Under the pieces are notes generated by a model. The model saw only the letters and a program-made list of their open reading frames with translations, did no database searches and was not told the origin of the DNA. A program made the position numbers and the translations under genes. Source: Utricularia gibba (Eukaryota > Streptophyta > Magnoliopsida > Lamiales > Lentibulariaceae). Taken from it: DNA of 64,000 bases. Below, one piece after another: positions 9,346 through 31,047 of the stretch. The stretch's first letter is position 1; each line of letters starts with the position of its first letter. The DNA lies in NCBI GenBank assembly GCA_002189035.1, contig NEEC01000014.1:188501-252500 (forward strand). The letters are read 5' to 3'.

Positions 9346-10942
9346 CTACGGTGCATCGTTAACGAGCTGCAATCCTCCCCAACCTTGTACCCCATCGAGG
9401 CACTGTCTAGTATGAGGTCCCGTGGTGTCCGTATTTGTCCCTTTTCTCGCCTTACAATCGTAGTATGGTGGTACATGATAACATGGGTCAATCGACTGAA
9501 CTCGACGACATGGATGGTAATGGCCTGTCTGATTCTTAGACAGGAAGATCATCCGTGATTGTAACCCGCCTAAACCTTGAGCTGCGTACCCAAAAGTTGA
9601 TGATTGGCTTGTAAGCAACTCGTCGCTTAAACCAAGCAAATATATTTCCGCTAAGGCTTTTTTATCATGCTCTAGGTTTTCAAGAAGTTGGTGCTCTTCA
9701 AAGCTTGGTTGATGAACTGCAACCATTTCTCCTGTCACAGTAGCATGCGCCCAATACATCTTCCTCATTTGTTCGAAGTAGTCACGATACAACGATGCCA
9801 ATAGTACAACAATTTTCTTCCTTTTGGGTACGGATCTGGTCAAATTTCCATGGTCGTGCTGATAAACTGATGGAAGTAAACCCTCATTCGCGGTGCATGA
9901 GAGAATTAGATTGAAAACGTCTTCGACTGGGGGTGATAGAAAGTATTAGTTCGAATTTGGATCCCCAATTGAAAGTCAGCATCAGATAAATAAGTATCAT
10001 AGAATCTTCTGACAAACCCCCAAACTACATCTCCAGGACTGAATAAATATCGAGCTAAATGATAAAAAACTGTTTCCTTATCCTGAAATAAGTTATCCAG
10101 CTTTTTTTGGAAGGACATCATGGAGAACAAGGAGGAGCAAAATATTGATTTGACCGTAATATCAACCATGGAACATCTTGAATATATGAGTGGTCTTCGT
10201 CACAGTAAAAAAGTTTATCAAAACTGTCATACGCATTATCCAAATGGACGTATACATAGGAGTAAGGCAATAAACCACTTGAATTATCTAATAAATTTTT
10301 TCTCAACAATTGACCAAAACTTTCGTTGGATTCCCTATGAAAACTTTGAAGTTTATCATTTAGTGGGAAATCCGAAGGAAGCAACCAGGAACTTTTAGGG
10401 AAGGGTTCACAAAAGAGAGAATAAACCGCTTTATTCTGAATCAGAAGAACTCTGTCAGTGAGAATAGCATATAAGAATGTAGAGGCAAGAGTAATGATTC
10501 TATTGCCCATGCCGTCATTCGTTTCAATCCATATGACATATTTGCATTCAGATGTCACTAGGGACATGCTACTTCTGAGGGCATCTACTGTCATGTTGTA
10601 CAAATGTGTATGTGGGCCGCAGATTTTGTGTAAATTCTCGTAACTTCTTAACTTGGAAATGAGATCTGCAGAAGGCTTTCTTATTACTGGATGTTTATGC
10701 AAGAGAGAATCATACCTACTAGGACAAGAACCTCCATCAAATCCACTTGGAAAAAGCTCATCATCAAGTTGCGTGGAGGAATCAATAGCTTGATTAAGCG
10801 TATACTGCCACGCACTCCATCTTGATGATTTGAAAGCGGAGAGCAAGTACAGTATCCCCATCCCAAATAAGACAAAGATGGCCACCAATTTAAGAGGAGG
10901 CAACCAAGGTTTCTTCAATGAATTACTGAAATGTGTTTCCAT
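9346..10942 (-). pseudogene. Xyloglucan-type alpha-1,2-fucosyltransferase (GT37) with two frameshifts
   Basis: Reading leftwards from the ATG at 10942, the protein begins METHFSNSLKKPW, followed by one membrane helix (a type II Golgi anchor). It continues with the GT37 landmarks DGGSCPSRYDSLL, KLRSYENLHKICGP, ECKYVIW, GNRIITLASTFLYA, FCEPFPKSSWLLPSDFP and VPWLI, then LGIQIR, MYWAHATVTGE, FGYAAQGLGGL and PPYYDCKARKGT. Family role: transfer of fucose from GDP-fucose to galactose of xyloglucan or arabinogalactan in the Golgi. The frame is lost near 10120-10135 (after YFAP) and near 9920-9940 (after HPQ). At each point about one base seems missing, after which the homology resumes in another frame. 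The last block 9843-9346 is open to its natural end. I see no splice sites that would remove either shift. A sequencing error is possible but would be needed twice. Confidence 0.8.
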
Positions 10943-11204
10943 GATTACGTGGCACAAAGTAGATTGATATCTACAATGATCCTTATGCCATTACAAGCAT
11001 GAATGGCATGGAGGGAGCACTGTTTTGGTGATCCAAATGAAACGTGTGCGTCTATGTGCTTTAAAAAGTTGGAAAGCCAGACATATTTATACGCAACACC
11101 TGAGCTTCTTCTACAGAATTCCTGCAAATATATTAATTGTAAGGAAATGCCTAAGCAATAATAATAAAAAAAAAGCGTTGAAAAATTTGAGCATATTTTG
11201 GATA
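10943..11204. promoter_or_regulatory. Upstream flank of the FUT copy
   Basis: Non-coding DNA directly upstream of the fucosyltransferase start codon. It leads into a block that is duplicated at 44.76 kb, where a FUT relic also sits on the same side. I could not place a TATA box with confidence. Confidence 0.35.
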
Positions 11205-11760
11205 ATCCAAACTGGAGAATCCTAGGGTCATAGGGCGACAAAGCCCAATAATAGCTACATGTGAATCATTTAGTGATACCGGGTCAAGTTAAGAACCCCT
11301 TTTTATAAAGAAGAATTCGTGAGTACAGCAGGTGTGGGTTGGATCAACCCGATCCAACTAAACCCTGAAATTGTTGGCTTATGTTTGGGTCATTATCTCT
11401 ACTTGTGAATCTGCAACTTTTTAATGATTTTCATTTTAGTAAAGATATGAACTACGCACTAGCTTTGAACGAAGCAGGGTTGCTGCATCGAATAAGTTCT
11501 CAAGGGACAACACCTAAACACTAAGCCCTATGGTGTGCTAGAGAATCATGTGATGTCCTGGATCTTAGTTACTCTCACAGACTGTAACCTTTATAAGGTC
11601 AACGTGTTTGAATTGACACGGATTTAGATGCTACTGCATTTTTTAACTGTTAATGCATTACCCGGGTAGTAAAAAATAAGTATTTGGTAGTATTCCCTTC
11701 TGAAGAAGAAAGATTAGAGTTCAACGTCAAGGGTTTGAATTACTGATTGCTGAATTTTTT
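11205..11760. repeat. Duplicated spacer block, copy 1 (matches 44755-45270)
   Basis: The two stretches can be aligned by eye over about 500 bp in the same orientation. Shared runs include ATAATAGCTACATGTGAA, GTGTGCTAGAGAATCATG, TGAATTGACACGGATTT and CTGTTACTGCATTACCCG (the last with small changes). In both places a FUT sequence lies on the left (minus strand). In the second copy the Pro-rich gene follows directly on the right. The block therefore marks one end of a segmental duplication. Confidence 0.8.
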
Positions 11761-11955: not shown

Positions 11956-13305
11956 GGCATTTAGTTCTTTATTAGGGTTTCATATTCACTTCATATCTAC
12001 TATCTAAAGACTTCTTTGGTTAGAAACTATGAGCGAAACATAACTCAACGATAGGCTCTTTTTCCCTGCTTACATTGATAATATTCACAGCCGCTTCACG
12101 TATAAATATTTGTGTCTTTTTTTTTTTTTCCCATATGTGGATTCTTTTCTACAGCATATACTTTTTGGTATTTGCAAGTTCATAGATGATGAAATCTAGC
12201 GTCTTAGTTCCGGAGTCAAATGAGCAATTCGATATCCATGTTGCAAAACTTACACGCTAATAACTATAAGCTTTTATATATCCATGGGGTGACGTATGGG
12301 GCCGAGGTGTAGGAGTAGCTCATCTACACGAGAGTAGAATAGAATCTGCTTCTTCTTCTTGTTTTTTTTTTTTAATCATAGCAGGAATCATTTGACCAGT
12401 AGGACAGCGTGGATTCCACCGAATCTCTAGGTACTCTCTGATGGAATTCCAAATGCTGGATGCATAATTAATGCGTCATTAATCAAGTCTTCGCCTCATT
12501 AAACCCTATCCAAAATCAGCGTTGTGAAGGTGAAGCGCCCTCTTTGTATTTATTTTGTCGGAGATAAACATAGATTTTCTACTGCCATGACATGCATGAA
12601 CGAGATTAATAAAAAATACAAGGTCAAGGCAAAACAATTTGTTCACCCAAAAAACTCAAAAGAAAAATGGGGGCTGCTCCACCGCATTAGCTATACTGAT
12701 CCACTAATACAATAAATCATTAGTAGAGTGAATGGGCTACGCTCAGCAAGCCAATTATGATGAAAGAAATAAAGAGATGTAGAAAATTACAATAACAGTT
12801 CATCAATCGCAATCAAAAAGAAAAACAGACGCTACTTATACTCATAGTCCACAAAACATCAGATTGCTCACCACACATTTGCCTGGTTCAGAACAGGTTC
12901 CCATTGGCTCCTTTTTGCTAGCCCAAAAAAGGTGCTCGGGTCAAGTCCACTTAACTTGCATAATGCATACAAGTTGACCCGGTCAGGTATATTTAGTTGA
13001 CCCAAACTAAATATTAAACATGCTCAATATATTTATACCCAACAGTCTAAAATTGGGTGGTTATGAAATTATCGGTGATTCATCGGGTGCATGCGTAAGT
13101 AAGCACCCATAGTCTAAAAGTATGCCGTCGTTTTTTTTTTTTTTAATTTTAATATCCTTAATTATTAATTTATTAATAAATATTTATTCATTTAATTAAT
13201 TAATCAAAATCTTAATTTATTCATTTGATTTTCTCATATTTTCATATGTCTTCATTTAGATTACTTGATAATCACCCATTGATTACTATTATTGCCTTTC
13301 ATTCT
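11956..13305. other. Intergenic AT-rich DNA
   Basis: No gene, RNA or mobile element that I can support. Poly-T runs lie at about 12118-12130 and 12361-12374. A 63-codon ORF at 12524-12715 has no recognisable features. Confidence 0.4.
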
Positions 13306-13945
13306 TGTTATGAGTGAAATCGATATCGGGTGGGAGGCCAATTTAAGATGATAGGTGCGATCGGGAATGCCACACTTAGTCACGTTCTTCACGGTTGGTA
13401 CGATTGAAATAAGAGTGAGCAAAGATTTTTTACGTGGAAATTACCGGAAAACGGAAAAACCACAGAGCTACCTGAGCTCGCTGAAAAAGAGCTTCACTAG
13501 ATGGAGGTCGCGAAGAGGAGAATACAAATTGAAGAAATCTTTTCTTGTCCAACCCGCTTTTCATCGTAATTCCTTATATTTATAGGAGAGCTCAACCTAA
13601 CCGAACCCTGACATCTACGAATATCATGCGCTGGGCGAGGGATCGAGCAAGCGCGGGCGGCGTCTCGCTTGGCGCTCGGGTTTAGGGTTTTTAGGGTTTA
13701 GGGTTTAGGGTTTAGGGTTTAGGGTTTAGGGTTTAGGGCTGTTTCCTACGCCTGCTATACGATCTCACTTTTCAGATATCGTCCGCCTGTTATGCTGTAA
13801 TTCGGCCGCTTTTCAGACTATGTCATCTGGCTAATCTTGTCAGATTTCTAACAGATATCGATCTGCTGATTGACGTTATCCCCTCACGATCTCTTTTGGC
13901 AGCCTTTTAGGAACCGATTACCCTTGACCGATTTATCCCCTATCA
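13306..13945. mobile_element. Solo LTR of the gypsy family seen at 31-39 kb, with an internal telomeric insert
   Basis: It begins TGTTATGAGTGAAATCG and ends CCCCTATCA. It aligns along its length with the LTRs at 31048-31574 and 38374-38850, sharing runs such as GTGAGCAAAGATTTTT, TTTATAGGAGAGCTCAA and CTGCTATACGATCTC. Flanking pentamers are ATTCT (13301-13305) and ATTCC (13946-13950), an imperfect target-site duplication. No internal element sequence follows, so this is a solo LTR. It is 640 bp against 527 bp for the left LTR of the full element. The excess is explained by a replacement at about 13624-13755 that carries telomere repeats. Confidence 0.85.
13681..13738. repeat. Interstitial telomeric repeat tract (TTTAGGG)
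   Basis: Seven perfect TTTAGGG units plus one longer variant (TTTTTAGGG at 13688-13696) lie in one head-to-tail run. TTTAGGG is the usual angiosperm telomere motif. The tract is preceded by a GC-rich stretch (about 13629-13680) and sits inside the gypsy solo LTR, not at a chromosome end. Confidence 0.95.
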
Positions 13946-14212
13946 ATTCCAAATCCGCAATCATCGTTCATTGATTATTATTTTTATTTTATGGATATTC
14001 AATTTTTAATTAAAACTTGTTTTATTTTAGTATTTTTTAAAAAATAATTTCATATAATTTAAATATTATAAATTAAAATTAGTATGATGCATTCATAATT
14101 TTTAAATCACAAATTGACGTAACCGAATTCATAAATCGACCAATCCATATACCTACACCTATGTATGCTAAGAAATTTATTAGTATTCAAATTTCTTCAC
14201 CCAATCTCGTCA

Positions 14213-14579: not shown

Positions 14580-15400
14580 AAAATCAGAGTTAGATGTGAT
14601 AGATATTGCATGATATGGGTGTAGAAAATATGACAGTGAAGATGTGAGAGTTTTGGTGTGGATGAATCTTTCTAAAACTCAAGATATTGTATATAACGTT
14701 CAAGAGGAAGAAGTATCTTTATTTTACAAATCCTGGTACCCTTTATATAGAAGGCAAAAAACTAGCCGTTGCCTTCTTGACCGTTGGATGTATTTGTCTG
14801 GTTCATAGCTACTTAGTCGTCGGATTTGCTTCTCCAAAGCATGTGAGGGACAGTGGGCTGTGAAGTGTTGCCTTTGGACTGGACTTACCTCATCTAATGG
14901 GCTGTAGCCCTTTGAGATGAGTAGGGCCCAGCATAATCAAGCTTACTCGTGCAGTGCATTGCTTCTACTTCAGCGAGATTTCCTCCTCACGACAGAACTT
15001 CTCCAAATCGCCGGACTTGTTCTTCCTCTCTTGTTGATCCTTGATATCCGCTGAAGTCTCAATTTCATCCTCACGCTCTAAAGAGATGTTTCGCTATTGC
15101 AATTTGACAGTCGATTTTAAAGATCAAAACCGCAACCCTTCGAAAAGCATGGTTCCAGTACTAAAAAATAAACATAAATTATATGTCAACATATTTGCAT
15201 TAGGAACCCCGGCCGTTTATGGTGCAAAATTGAATTTGTAGACGGTGCCCTTGAAATGGGAACGCAAAAAATGGATTATTTTTGAACGTTTTCTTCCCTT
15301 GCATGACTTTGTTGAAGCATGGAGCCTATCCCGTGGCACAATTTTTGTGTAAATTGTAGGCAGTGATAGATATTTTAGAGTTGAAGAAAACACTAGGGAA
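14580..15400. other. Intergenic, LTR-like fragments possible
   Basis: No supported gene. The stretch near 14700-14800 (CTTTATATAGAAGG followed by GCCGTTGCC and CCGTTGG) has the look of an LTR promoter region, but I could not find paired ends. An open frame at 15041-15241 has no family features. Confidence 0.3.
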
Positions 15401-16872: not shown

Positions 16873-17571
16873 TTAAACAGGAAAGCCTGTGCAAACCAAG
16901 CAAACTCCTGAGACGTATGAAAGCAGTAGCTTTAAGGGACTTGGTGAAGATATCTGCCATTTGATCTTCACCTTTATATAACAAAGCTCTATAATTCCTT
17001 CCTTCACACAGTCTCTAATATAATGAAAATGAGTTCTCATATGCTTGCTGCGAGCATGAAATACTGGATTCCATCCAAGTGCTATGACAGATTTATTATC
17101 CGCATGCAGCTTAGTGGGGAGGTCACAAATGAATCCTAAATTCTCCAGCATGTATCGCAGCCATATAGCATGACAAAAACAAGCGTTTGGAGCAACATAC
17201 TCAGCTTCACATGCTGATAAAGTGACAATGGGTTGCTTCTTTGAATTCCAAACTATAGCAGTGTCAACAAGGAAGAATGTAAAGCCACTTGTACTCCGAG
17301 AATCATCTAAATTGCCAGCCCAATCACTGTCGTTATACCCTTCAAGTTCAAAATTTTCTGCTGTGGCATACCACATACCAAAGTCCATGGTCCCTTTCAA
17401 ATATCTAAGAATTCGCCTTGCTGCCTTAAGATATATCTCCCTCGGCTTCTTCATGAAACGATAAACCAGTCCCACAAAAAAATAAGATATCAGGTTTGGT
17501 GCTAGTGATGTATCGAAGAGAACCAACAAGACTCTCAAATGAAGTGGCATTAACCTCTTTAGAAGTATCAT
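16873..17571 (-). pseudogene. Copia RNase H domain
   Basis: Contains ILRYLKGTMDFGMWY, NDSDWAGNLDDSRSTSG, the segment SACEAEYVA and HADNKSVIALG. These are the copia RNase H catalytic context (D in SDWAG, E in AEYVA, D in ADNKS). It is in a different frame from the RT block upstream. Confidence 0.9.
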
Positions 17572-18533
17572 TAATGCTCAACTTCACATTATATTCTGAT
17601 GGAGTGTCCACCGAATTACACTGAGTCATGTTGTACCTCTTAAGAAGATCTTTCACAAAGCCTTCTTGAGTGATAAAAATTCCATTGGATAATTGTTTGA
17701 CTTCAATGCCTAGATAGAAGTGCATTAAACCAGCATCAATCATCTCAAATTCTGCATTCATCTTCAACTTAAATTCTTTTACTTTATCTTCCTTGCTACC
17801 AATGACCAATAAGTCATCCACATAGATGCACACAATCAACATATCAGCCTGCTCCTTACCGCGTTCATAGAGAGAATGCTCATGAGGACATTGAATGAAG
17901 TGTCTCCCTTGTAAGTATGCATCGATTCTTTGATTCCAAGCATGTGGTGCTTGTCTCAAGCCATAAAGAGCTTTGTGTAACCTCATAACCTTATCTTCAT
18001 CTCCCTTTTTGATATAGTCCAATGGTTGATCTACATATACCTCCTCTTCTGCCATTTAAAAATGCAGCTTTAACATCCACTTGCCATATCTTCCACCTTT
18101 AATGCGCAGCAAGTGAGATAATAATTCTGATAGTTTCCATGCGTGCTACAGGTGTGAAAACTTGATCAAAATCAATTCCTTCCTTTTGTTTATAGCCTTT
18201 AGCCACTAATCTTGCCTTCAACCAATTACTATCACCATTTGATTTTTTTTTAATCTTGTATACCCATTTAACTCCAATAACAGTCTTGTTTGATGGTATG
18301 TCAACCAAGCTCCAGGTTTGATTCTTCTCGATCGAATGAATTTCATCATTCATTGCTCTCCTCCATTCTGGATACTGATTAGCCTCATAAAAATCCAAAG
18401 GTTCAGTATCCACGAATAAACAAAAGTGAGAGAAGTTGCTTGCTTCATGCCACATGTCATCATTCCTTTCTTCTATTAATGATGATGGAAGGTCAATGTC
18501 ATGATAATTAAGGTGCCTTGGAATCCATCTCAT
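17426..18533 (-). pseudogene. Copia reverse transcriptase (two frames)
   Basis: The block 18533-18099 holds the RT N-terminal part (ALWSLVDIP-like [39 protein letters not shown]). The block 18055-17426 holds the palm with CIYVDDLLVIGS, where YVDD is the catalytic motif, and the thumb (TQEGFVKDLLKRYNM). About 45 bp between them are out of frame, so the RT cannot be translated as one protein. Confidence 0.92.
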
Positions 18534-18842
18534 TTTCTGTTTCCTACGCGATGAAAATGTGGCAGCATTAGAATCACCAGCTTGTGTTGATAGACCTTAT
18601 TCCTGTTGAGGAACACCACCAGAGTCATCATCAACACTAGACTCCAACCACTCGGGGTCCACATAACTATATGAATGATCTGCTTTTGATAAAGATTTCC
18701 AATCCTAGCTTGCATTTTCATCAAAGACAACATCTCTACTTAACAAAATCTTCCTTATAAGTAGATCAAATAGCCTGCAAGTCTTCGAGTGTTGATCATA
18801 TCCAAGGAACACCAGCTTTTGGGATTTATCATCCAATTTACT

Positions 18843-19393
18843 TCACATATCATCTAGCTTATGTGCATATGCAACGGATTCAAAAATCCGCATATGGGAG
18901 ATAGACGATTTGATCCCTTTCCAAGCATCCTGTGGAGTCATATTTGCAACACTCCTTGTAGGAGTTCTATTTAAAATATAAATTGAGGTAGCAGCAGCGT
19001 CTCCCCAAAACTCCTTTGACATATTTTTGGTTCTCAGAAGACATCGAATCATATCAAGAATAGTTCTATTTTTTCTCTCAACAACACCATTTTGTTGAGG
19101 TGTCTTGGCGGCTGTAAGTGATTTATGTATACCAAGCTCCTTGCAATAATCAACAAATTGGTTAGGAGTGAACTCACCTCTTCTATCTGTTCTCAAGCAT
19201 TTAATACATAAACCACTCTGCTTCTCAACCTTGGTCTTGAATTCCTTAAAATATTGAAGACATCAGACTTGTTTTTCATCAAATAAATCCACATCTTCCT
19301 GCTATAGTCATCCACGAATAAAAGGAAATAATTTTTATTTCCCGAAATACATGGTTTAATTGAACTACACACATCACCATGTATTAACTCCAA
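18843..19393 (-). pseudogene. Copia integrase core
   Basis: 19393-19193 reads LIHGDVCSSIKP and LLFVDDYSRKMWIYLM. 19196-18843 reads LRTDRRGEFT, HKSLTAAKTPQQNGVVERKNRT and MTPQDAW. The D, D and E positions of the rve fold are visible (HGD, RTDRRGE, GVVERKN). A frameshift separates the two halves near 19195. Confidence 0.9.
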
Positions 19394-19588
19394 AGGACGC
19401 CTTGCTCTAGACTAGGAAACCTTAGGAATTTATGTGCGTGCTTGTTTTCCAAAAACACAGCCTTCACATATTTGATTTGGTCTAGAGATATGTGGTAAGC
19501 CATTAACCATGTAATTTCTACCCAGTCTTCCTAGATTCTCGAAATTAATGTGTCCAAAACGCATGTGCCAAGTCCAAGCATCATCACC

Positions 19589-26625: not shown

Positions 26626-28442
26626 GTCACCGGCTGGTCATGAATAATAATAATGATGTCCAGTCCATTGTAAGAAACACTTCCATTGAGGGGTGTGCTG
26701 ATCATCTCCTTACTTGATTGATGTAACATGGCTCCCGTGAATAAAGTGTATCAAACTTACTATTCACTTATTTAGGCTGCTGCTCCAATCCATAACATAC
26801 AATCAACTACAAACCAACAACTATTCGTTTCAGGCTCAGTGCCCATGCCAACATTATGCTACAAAAGGCCTAAAGCCTTTTGCCCCTCCTGGTGTGGTAT
26901 GAATGATCTTAAATCGAATCAATACAACTACTTTACAGTAACCTAAGGTTTTGTTTAGCATCCGTATAAAAACCTTGTTTCCTTACAATTTAATAAAAAA
27001 ATATGTGTTTGATTCAAAATATAAGTTAAATACATGTACATATGTTTATGATTTCTTCCAATTGAACCTTTTTATAATTAGCGGGAGAAAATATTTTATT
27101 AAAGTTAATAATGCCATATATTTTTAATAATCATAAATTTGATTTTTAACACAATTTTTTTCAAAAGGTAAGACTAATTTTAATGCATATCAATCAAAAT
27201 TTCTAATTGAATAAACAATACCAATCAACCAAACACAATTTTCATCTTAACTCATAAATAAAGTTTTATCTAATCAATTAATAATTGGAACCTTCCTAAA
27301 TATGAAACCCCTAACCAAAAAAACCCTGAATGGAATCAATAACATTGAAATTATAGTTCATAGCATGATCCCAAACCCTTTACTCCAACTACTGATGACT
27401 AACTAACAAGTTTAATAAATAGGCAATTAGACTTGTTTTTTTTATTCTTGAACAACTCAAATATCTTTTTTTTAGTGCATATCAATTTAATGCGCTGTTA
27501 AGATCAAAGTCAACTTGTACTATTTCGTTAGGAGACTAAGCTAACCATCATTTCTATAATTCAATGAATGCCCTCAAGGCATATTCTGTTCAAATGTTGT
27601 TATTTAATTCCCAAATATGTGGTGGCACGCTTGGGCTATTCGAAATTCGAGCCCTTGGGAGTTGGGAGTAGACTTCACGTATACTATTTAGTTAATTTTT
27701 ATTCAAATCATAATACTAAATCTGAAATTTAAAAATATCATAATATAAACCCTAAAATCTAAACTTAAAATCTAAAACTTAAATTTCAAATCTTAAACCC
27801 TTAAATCTTAAATCACAAAACTAAATATCAAGTTCTAAAATCTAAACCTTCAACTCTAAACCTAGAACAGCGGAGGTAAGATGTGGCAAATTTAAATCTG
27901 AAACCAAAAAAATTAAATCCCAATTAAAATCTTAAACCTTAAATCAGTAATCTTAAAAAATTATGAAATCTTAAACCCTAAACTCTAAATCAGTAATCAT
28001 AAAATTATGAAAACTTAACATATAATATTTCTAAGTTATAAATACTAAATATTAAACTTTAAAATTGAACCCCTAAATTAGAAATCCAAAAAAAAAAAAC
28101 ATTCAAAAACGAAAAAAGCATAAAGTAGGGTAAAGCGCAAAGAACAACTTATTTTTTTGGTAATTTACAAATCTTTGCTATAACTAGGGTAAATGGCAAA
28201 TAAAATAAAAAAGTTCAGGTATTTAACTCATTTCCCCGACTTCACGTATACTCTTTAGATCCACCAAATCTTTCATTTCAACAGTTACCATTTGTGATAG
28301 TCATTTCTAAAATGTAAGTTTAAAAAAGAGAATATTTAATTTTTTTGTGTGTTAAGACATGACTTTTTAAGGTATATCTTTGTTGACGTGGGCATCATTA
28401 AATACAGAAAATGGTAGAGGGAAGGGCTCACAGCAATTTGAG
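26626..28442. other. AT-rich intergenic DNA upstream of the methyltransferase
   Basis: No gene seen. 26680-26790 matches the 3' flank of the Pro-rich copy near 22.2 kb. 27435-27665 matches 11755-11955. 27720-28080 is rich in degenerate CCCTAAA-like words. Confidence 0.5.
27720..28080. repeat. Degenerate AAACCCTAAA-like repeat field
   Basis: Short words such as AAACCCTAAA, ATCTTAAACC and AAATCTAAAC recur many times without a strict period. They resemble decayed CCCTAAA telomere-type or simple AT-rich tandem sequence. Perfect adjacent telomere units are not present. Confidence 0.45.
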
Positions 28443-29542: not shown

Positions 29543-31047
29543 TTTCCGGCGGCTACGGAAGCCAATATGTGTTGTTGAGAATTAAAAAATAAATAAATCA
29601 AGTTTATGGTCGAGTTGTGGTTCTTGCTATGATTTGAATGTGTGCTCAAACTTTGTGTAATGTGAACCTGAATCATTGATAGATATTGTTTTGTGCCTGT
29701 TTTATGAATATTTCATGCCTAATTCACGCCGGTGCCTCAACAAAAGTGGAAAAAGAAGAAGAAACACAACCAATGTTATGTTAAAATGGCACCCCACAGT
29801 GGAGAAGGAAATCAAGGATTAGTAGACCTAGACATAAAGAAAACAAGAAAACCCAACGAAAATGGGTTTTCTTGATATATAAATTGCCGCAATATAACAA
29901 GGAGCGACCATTCCATTTTAAGAGAGCATGTAATTATTGAAGGATAAGCACAAGATCCGTAGGACGTCAGCATCAGACAGCAGCATCGCAGCAGTTTTCA
30001 GGCCAAGTTCATTATGTCAGCGAGTAGTTATAGAAGTTACAAGTTTTAGATAAAGTAATTTGGTTGTATGGTTAGTTTTAGATACGAAAGTGCAGGTCTA
30101 TATATTGTAACCAAAACAATGCAATCGAGGAAGCATTAAGTTGAAGTTTATTCTGGTATTACATTTTGTTCTGTCTTGAAAGTGTTTGACATTGGAAGAG
30201 AACGCTTGAAATGTGTAGGGACTTAGAATTGCTTGGTGACAATGAAGAAATTTTATAGCTTCCAAGCTTGAAGCCTTAAAATTGGATTACGATCTAAAAC
30301 AACGAGTTTACAATCTGGAAGCTTGTAAATAAAAGGAGGCCTCGTTGTGGAATGCCCCACTGTAAAAACCAGATTTGCTGAATACCCCGGGTTCTAAAAG
30401 TAATCTCCAAATACCCCTTTTTTTATTATTTTTATTTTTTATATAATTAATGCACATTTTTATCTATTTTAATCTAAAAATATATTTCCATCTGTTTTAA
30501 ATGCACATTTTTATCTATTTAATTTTAAATTCAATTTTGATTTCAAATTAATTCACTTTACAAATTGTAAAATCAAAATTAAATTTTTATTATGAAAATA
30601 TTTTTACAAAAACATGTCTTTACTATAATCGTAATTTACACCTATAACAAATATATAGTATAATGTTATACTAATGTTTTTGAATGCATCATCACTTGTA
30701 CACTTACAATATATTTTTTTGATCACTGAACACAAGTAATCTAGTTAGTAATAAATTTAAATATGAATTGTATTTATATAATGTTGCTATAAAAAATATG
30801 CAATGAAACAAAATATGGTGAATAGTATCCAGAAAACAATTTAATGTTTTTTATGATATTTGGATCATCTAGTATAAAATTATTAAATATTATATATTGC
30901 TTAAAAAATTTATTCATGTGATATTACTTATTATTGAAATATAATAATAAAATAAAAAAATATTTTTATGGTTGTATAAAACAAATTTAACTAAAAATAT
31001 AAATAAATTAAATCAAAATATTATTTAAAGTAAATGCTTATATAAAT
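29543..31047. other. Intergenic AT-rich DNA
   Basis: No gene. A possible LTR promoter lies near 30090-30120 (GGTCTATATATTGTAACC), but no paired ends were found. From 30420 onward the sequence is very AT-rich with no coding capacity. Confidence 0.4.

Follow-up and report, generated by a model that had tools for sequence, protein, structure and literature searches.

How does a short run of plant telomere repeats come to lie inside a retrotransposon relic at an internal site of a chromosome? This question is raised by a 64,000-nucleotide stretch of Utricularia gibba DNA (hereafter the window), in which a long terminal repeat (LTR) holds a 53-bp GC-rich piece followed by (TTTAGGG)n with one TTTTTAGGG unit. 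The initial annotation had described an eight-unit TTTAGGG-type tract with a GC-rich neighbour, both of which we recovered (Table 1). It had offered two origins: repair of a double-strand break with telomeric DNA, and amplification of an LTR variant that carries the tract.

Table 1 Features of the LTR that carries telomere repeats (window coordinates)
Feature	Position	Strand	Evidence or remark
Target-site duplication, left half ATTCT	13301–13305	.	Sequence
Solo LTR, Ty3/gypsy-type	13306–13945	-	TG...CA ends; homology with the window LTRs near 31047 and 38374 and with numerous copies elsewhere in the genome
Insertion, 111 bp	13626–13736	.	Private to the window copy; absent from the 29 other genome copies fetched and from both window LTRs at 31 and 38 kb
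GC-rich filler, 53 bp, 74% GC	13626–13678	.	Single copy in the 100 Mb searched
Telomeric tract, TTTAGGG units and one TTTTTAGGG	13678–13738	+	TRF, unit matches, 61/61 identity to a terminal telomere
Target-site duplication, right half ATTCC	13946–13950	.	Sequence

The host element, a solo LTR of the Ty3/gypsy type

The element has the termini TGTTATG...CTATCA and measures 529 bp once the insert is subtracted. It adjoins no partner LTR and has no internal region, and its flanking duplication is imperfect, with 4 of 5 bases matching. Family membership was read from the related LTRs at 31 and 38 kb, between which the minus strand encodes Retrotrans_gag (6.8e-7) and RVT_1 (2.7e-25) domains. This combination fits Ty3/gypsy and makes the minus strand the sense strand of the LTR family; read in the sense direction, the repeat of the window copy is therefore CCCTAAA. 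Judged by these sequence features, the element is a dead solo LTR of a Ty3/gypsy family, in agreement with the class first assigned to it.

Two other regions to either side were recognized on the minus strand. A Ty1/copia remnant occupies 16873–19411 and includes RVT_2, the domain typical of Ty1/copia reverse transcriptase (6.4e-21 for 18102–18596), and a xyloglucan fucosyltransferase gene lies at 9346–11265 (XG_FTase, 7.2e-71 for 10121–10990).

A clean insertion private to one LTR copy

Comparison with the window LTRs showed ordinary LTR sequence on both sides of the insertion. A genome search with the LTR, in which 40 places of 257 candidates were scored, yielded 30 loci including the window itself. 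The inserted bases are absent from all 29 other family copies that were fetched and from both window LTRs at 31 and 38 kb. Alignments across the insertion site are free of gaps for 28 of these 29 genome copies and for both window LTRs. The remaining copy, L002, also has no insert, and 44 bp of its LTR are missing beside the site, so it offers no base-by-base test of the join. L002 and L003, which is intact at the site, are the nearest relatives of the window copy; with a spacing of about 9.5 kb and a shared orientation, they are perhaps the two LTRs of one element. With ordinary LTR sequence at both flanks and empty copies elsewhere, the proposed direction of the event, a tract inserted into an LTR and not the reverse, holds. 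The empty form is deduced from paralogous LTR copies, and the sample is 100 Mb of one genome.

Without the insert, the window copy would have the sequence GAATATC/GGCTGTTT at this site, where the slash marks the point of insertion. Placement of the insert is unambiguous, because its last base (G) differs from the left-flank C and its first base (A) differs from the right-flank G. In all the empty copies but L002 the two LTR halves abut with no missing or extra base, which makes the event a clean insertion of 111 bp and not a replacement. The earlier estimate, that about 16 bp of LTR had been replaced by about 129 bp, has to be corrected accordingly; it arose from comparison with the two LTRs at 31 and 38 kb, which are only 78–85% identical to the window copy, while the closer genome copies reach 90–93%.

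No target-site duplication surrounds the insert, which sets it apart from an ordinary transposon insertion. At the right junction the target bases GG (13737–13738) continue the repeat (TTTAG + GG), a 2-base overlap that is expected by chance in 1 of 16 cases. The LTR of the window copy has 6 substitutions of its own over 506 sites, or 19 over 438 against the nearest copies, and the tract has 0 in 61; these counts do not separate an insertion of the same age as the LTR from a younger one.

The tract matches the telomeres of the same genome

TRF scored the TTTAGGG array at 104, with 8.4 copies. Six exact, overlapping matches to two telomere units were found in it; when up to 2 mismatches were allowed, the window contained 10 such matches where 0.58 were expected, and every shuffle gave fewer than 10. 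All 61 letters of the tract, including the TTTTTAGGG unit, are identical to a stretch of terminal telomere (C413:5667423–5667483). The identity, variant unit included, shows that the tract resembles the species' own telomere DNA or the product of its telomerase. At eight contig ends, where this variant accounts for roughly 1% of the units, GGGTTTTTAGGG was counted 6 times in roughly 700–800 units. The odd TTTTTAGGG unit is compatible with capture and with synthesis alike, since slippage of telomerase could presumably remake it.

The terminal telomeres themselves (e.g. L032 1231–1943, L034, L037–L040) consist of TTTAGGG with about 6% TTCAGGG, some TTAGGG and TTTTAGGG. The window includes one further telomere-like region, a degenerate minus-strand tract of the TAAACCCTAAATC type at 27718–28025 with a 44-bp unit in about two copies; it is far more decayed than the tract at 13.7 kb.

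A single copy in the genome

The tract site is not terminal. The 146-bp stretch at C98:202110–202255 lies within a 3.1-Mb contig, and its listed matches were itself and telomere arrays, the other telomeric matches listed all falling no more than about 1.2 kb from a contig end. A pattern search of the 100 Mb for four perfect units followed by C gave one hit, the window tract, and for four units followed by A none. This pattern misses interstitial arrays that end differently; within its reach, the single hit indicates that the tract does not belong to a widespread repeat family. The GC-rich piece had no second copy in the 100 Mb, whether by BLAST to E = 10 or by a pattern that allowed 3 mismatches in 26 bases. 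One contig of the genome searched, C1, has a length of exactly 8.5 Mb and may be truncated.

The single copy supports, at the level of sequence, one break-repair event and speaks against an amplified LTR that bears the tract. The check suggested in the initial annotation, a search of the LTR family for copies that hold the tract and the same GC-rich neighbour, thus returned one copy in the 100 Mb and favours break repair.

Possible sources of the GC-rich filler

The GC content of the filler contrasts with 43% in the LTR, and its end, ...CTCGGG, is in register with TTTAGGG. Several sources were considered and set aside. Local templating from the window is disfavoured, as no common word exceeds 10 bases; a hairpin is not indicated (z = 0.11 against shuffles); and the search for a bacterial or T-DNA plasmid source gave one chance-level match, to Halarchaeum (E = 0.03). 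Comparison of the LTR and the filler with known RNA families in Rfam likewise produced chance-level matches only.

We also looked for the telomerase RNA gene of the species, with Pol III promoter patterns and template patterns. The promoter patterns recovered U6, U3, 7SL RNA and U6atac genes and no candidate with a telomere template, and in the 100 Mb neither kind of pattern led to the telomerase RNA gene. One locus, L066, has a Pol III-type promoter motif from 1500 on, followed by a GC-rich stretch with no Rfam match at gathering score.

Origin of the insertion

What has to be explained is a derived insertion in one copy, with no loss of target, a telomeric identity that extends to the variant unit and an overlap of two bases at the right junction. 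We favour, with a probability of roughly 0.87, repair of a break by end joining, in which filler and telomeric DNA, either synthesised or captured, were added and the gap was closed through GG microhomology. Of the two origins first offered, break repair is also the better reading of a tract found once in 100 Mb at a site that is empty in the paralogues.

The double-strand break would have occurred between 13625 and 13737 once the LTR was in place, and would have been processed by non-homologous or alternative end joining. In the order of steps that we consider most plausible, about 53 bp of GC-rich filler would be joined to the left break end. About 58 bp of TTTAGGG-strand DNA would follow, by telomerase synthesis on the 3′ end of the filler or as a telomere fragment carried in, and the G-rich end would then be joined to the right break end via GG/CC microhomology. 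Synthesis by telomerase and capture of telomeric DNA stand at about even odds. Because telomerase adds the G-rich strand to 3′ ends, it would act on the filler, at the left, and the GG at the right would be a joining microhomology and not a priming site.

By analogy, the pattern of a single derived insertion with neither loss nor duplication of the target, filler plus repeats and a short overlap matches telomeric break repair in primates, rodents and horse. Of 66 insertions of telomeric repeats in the horse, 12 had gained seemingly random bases as their sole further change, and 11 showed no modification at all (PMC7215372). In-register target bases are known from primates and rodents (PMC2246262) and from the horse (PMC7215372).

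Other origins were weighed against end-joining repair. That an LTR variant with the tract was amplified by retrotransposition, so that the family spreads telomeric seeds, could reasonably be proposed, since an LTR is copied together with whatever is inserted in it. We found no support for it: the GC-rich piece, the left junction and the right junction occur at no other locus in the 100 Mb, and L002 and L003, the nearest relatives, both lack the insert. We regard amplification as extremely unlikely. It is hardly more credible that the locus is an assembly or sequencing artefact in which a telomeric read became chimeric with an LTR, since a chimera would not be expected to keep the two halves of the LTR, its flanking duplication and every base at the join, as is the case here.

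Two further explanations concern the filler. A fragment from a subtelomere-telomere junction, GC-rich piece included, might have been captured whole from a chromosome end, and non-telomeric DNA followed rightwards by TTTAGGG is indeed the order and orientation of such an end. This is nevertheless improbable, as the GC-rich piece was not present upstream of the terminal arrays at eight contig ends, which do not cover all chromosome ends, and has no second copy elsewhere in the 100 Mb. The filler could also have been reverse-transcribed from part of the telomerase RNA of the plant, by analogy with the TERC-ITS of vertebrates, in which a foreign piece and in-register repeats are likewise inserted together (PMC2246262, PMC8537989). 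If the gene lies within the 100 Mb, however, it cannot be closely matched by the GC-rich piece, which is unique there, and we hold this origin to be very improbable. If true, it would be the first plant TERC-ITS known to us and would demonstrate a direct action of plant telomerase on an internal break.

Relation to known interstitial telomere sequences

The insertion resembles the short interstitial telomeric sequences of rodents, primates and horse in that its repeats appear to have been gained all at once, at a site for which the empty form can be recognized, together with seemingly random extra bases and perhaps with nucleotides in register (PMC2246262, PMC7215372). It differs from them in its repeat, the plant TTTAGGG, in the source of the empty form, which was paralogous LTR copies and not the orthologous locus, and in the filler, whose 53 bp roughly equal the telomeric part in length. 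By this comparison, the insertion is a plant counterpart of the mammalian short interstitial telomeric sequences, and the kind of event is already known. The TERC-ITS of vertebrates share with it a non-telomeric piece beside telomere repeats, and some of them interrupt transposable elements (PMC2246262, PMC8537989); a telomerase RNA origin of the filler, however, is hypothetical at the present locus.

In plants, telo boxes and other short interstitial telomere motifs also place TTTAGGG away from chromosome ends; a telomerase-based origin has been proposed for them, in which units are added singly in promoter regions (PMC3022908). The window locus differs in that about eight units and a filler lie inside a dead LTR. 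Break repair has been named in a review as a possible source of short interstitial telomere tracts in plants (PMC8621592).

About 0.9 kb to the right of the tract, at 14666–14860 on the plus strand, a weak CDC50-like fragment was detected (E 0.0089, which misses the curated cut-off). A telomere tract that precedes a gene might function as a telo box, which is speculative here. We imply no function for the insertion, and any effect on a neighbouring gene is equally a matter of speculation.

A single case does not change the view of how interstitial telomere tracts arise. The locus allows a clean comparison of an internal site of a plant chromosome before and after telomeric DNA entered it, the state before being represented in 29 paralogues. 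Dead LTR copies are ready-made empty sites, which makes it simple to look for insertions of this type across any plant genome.
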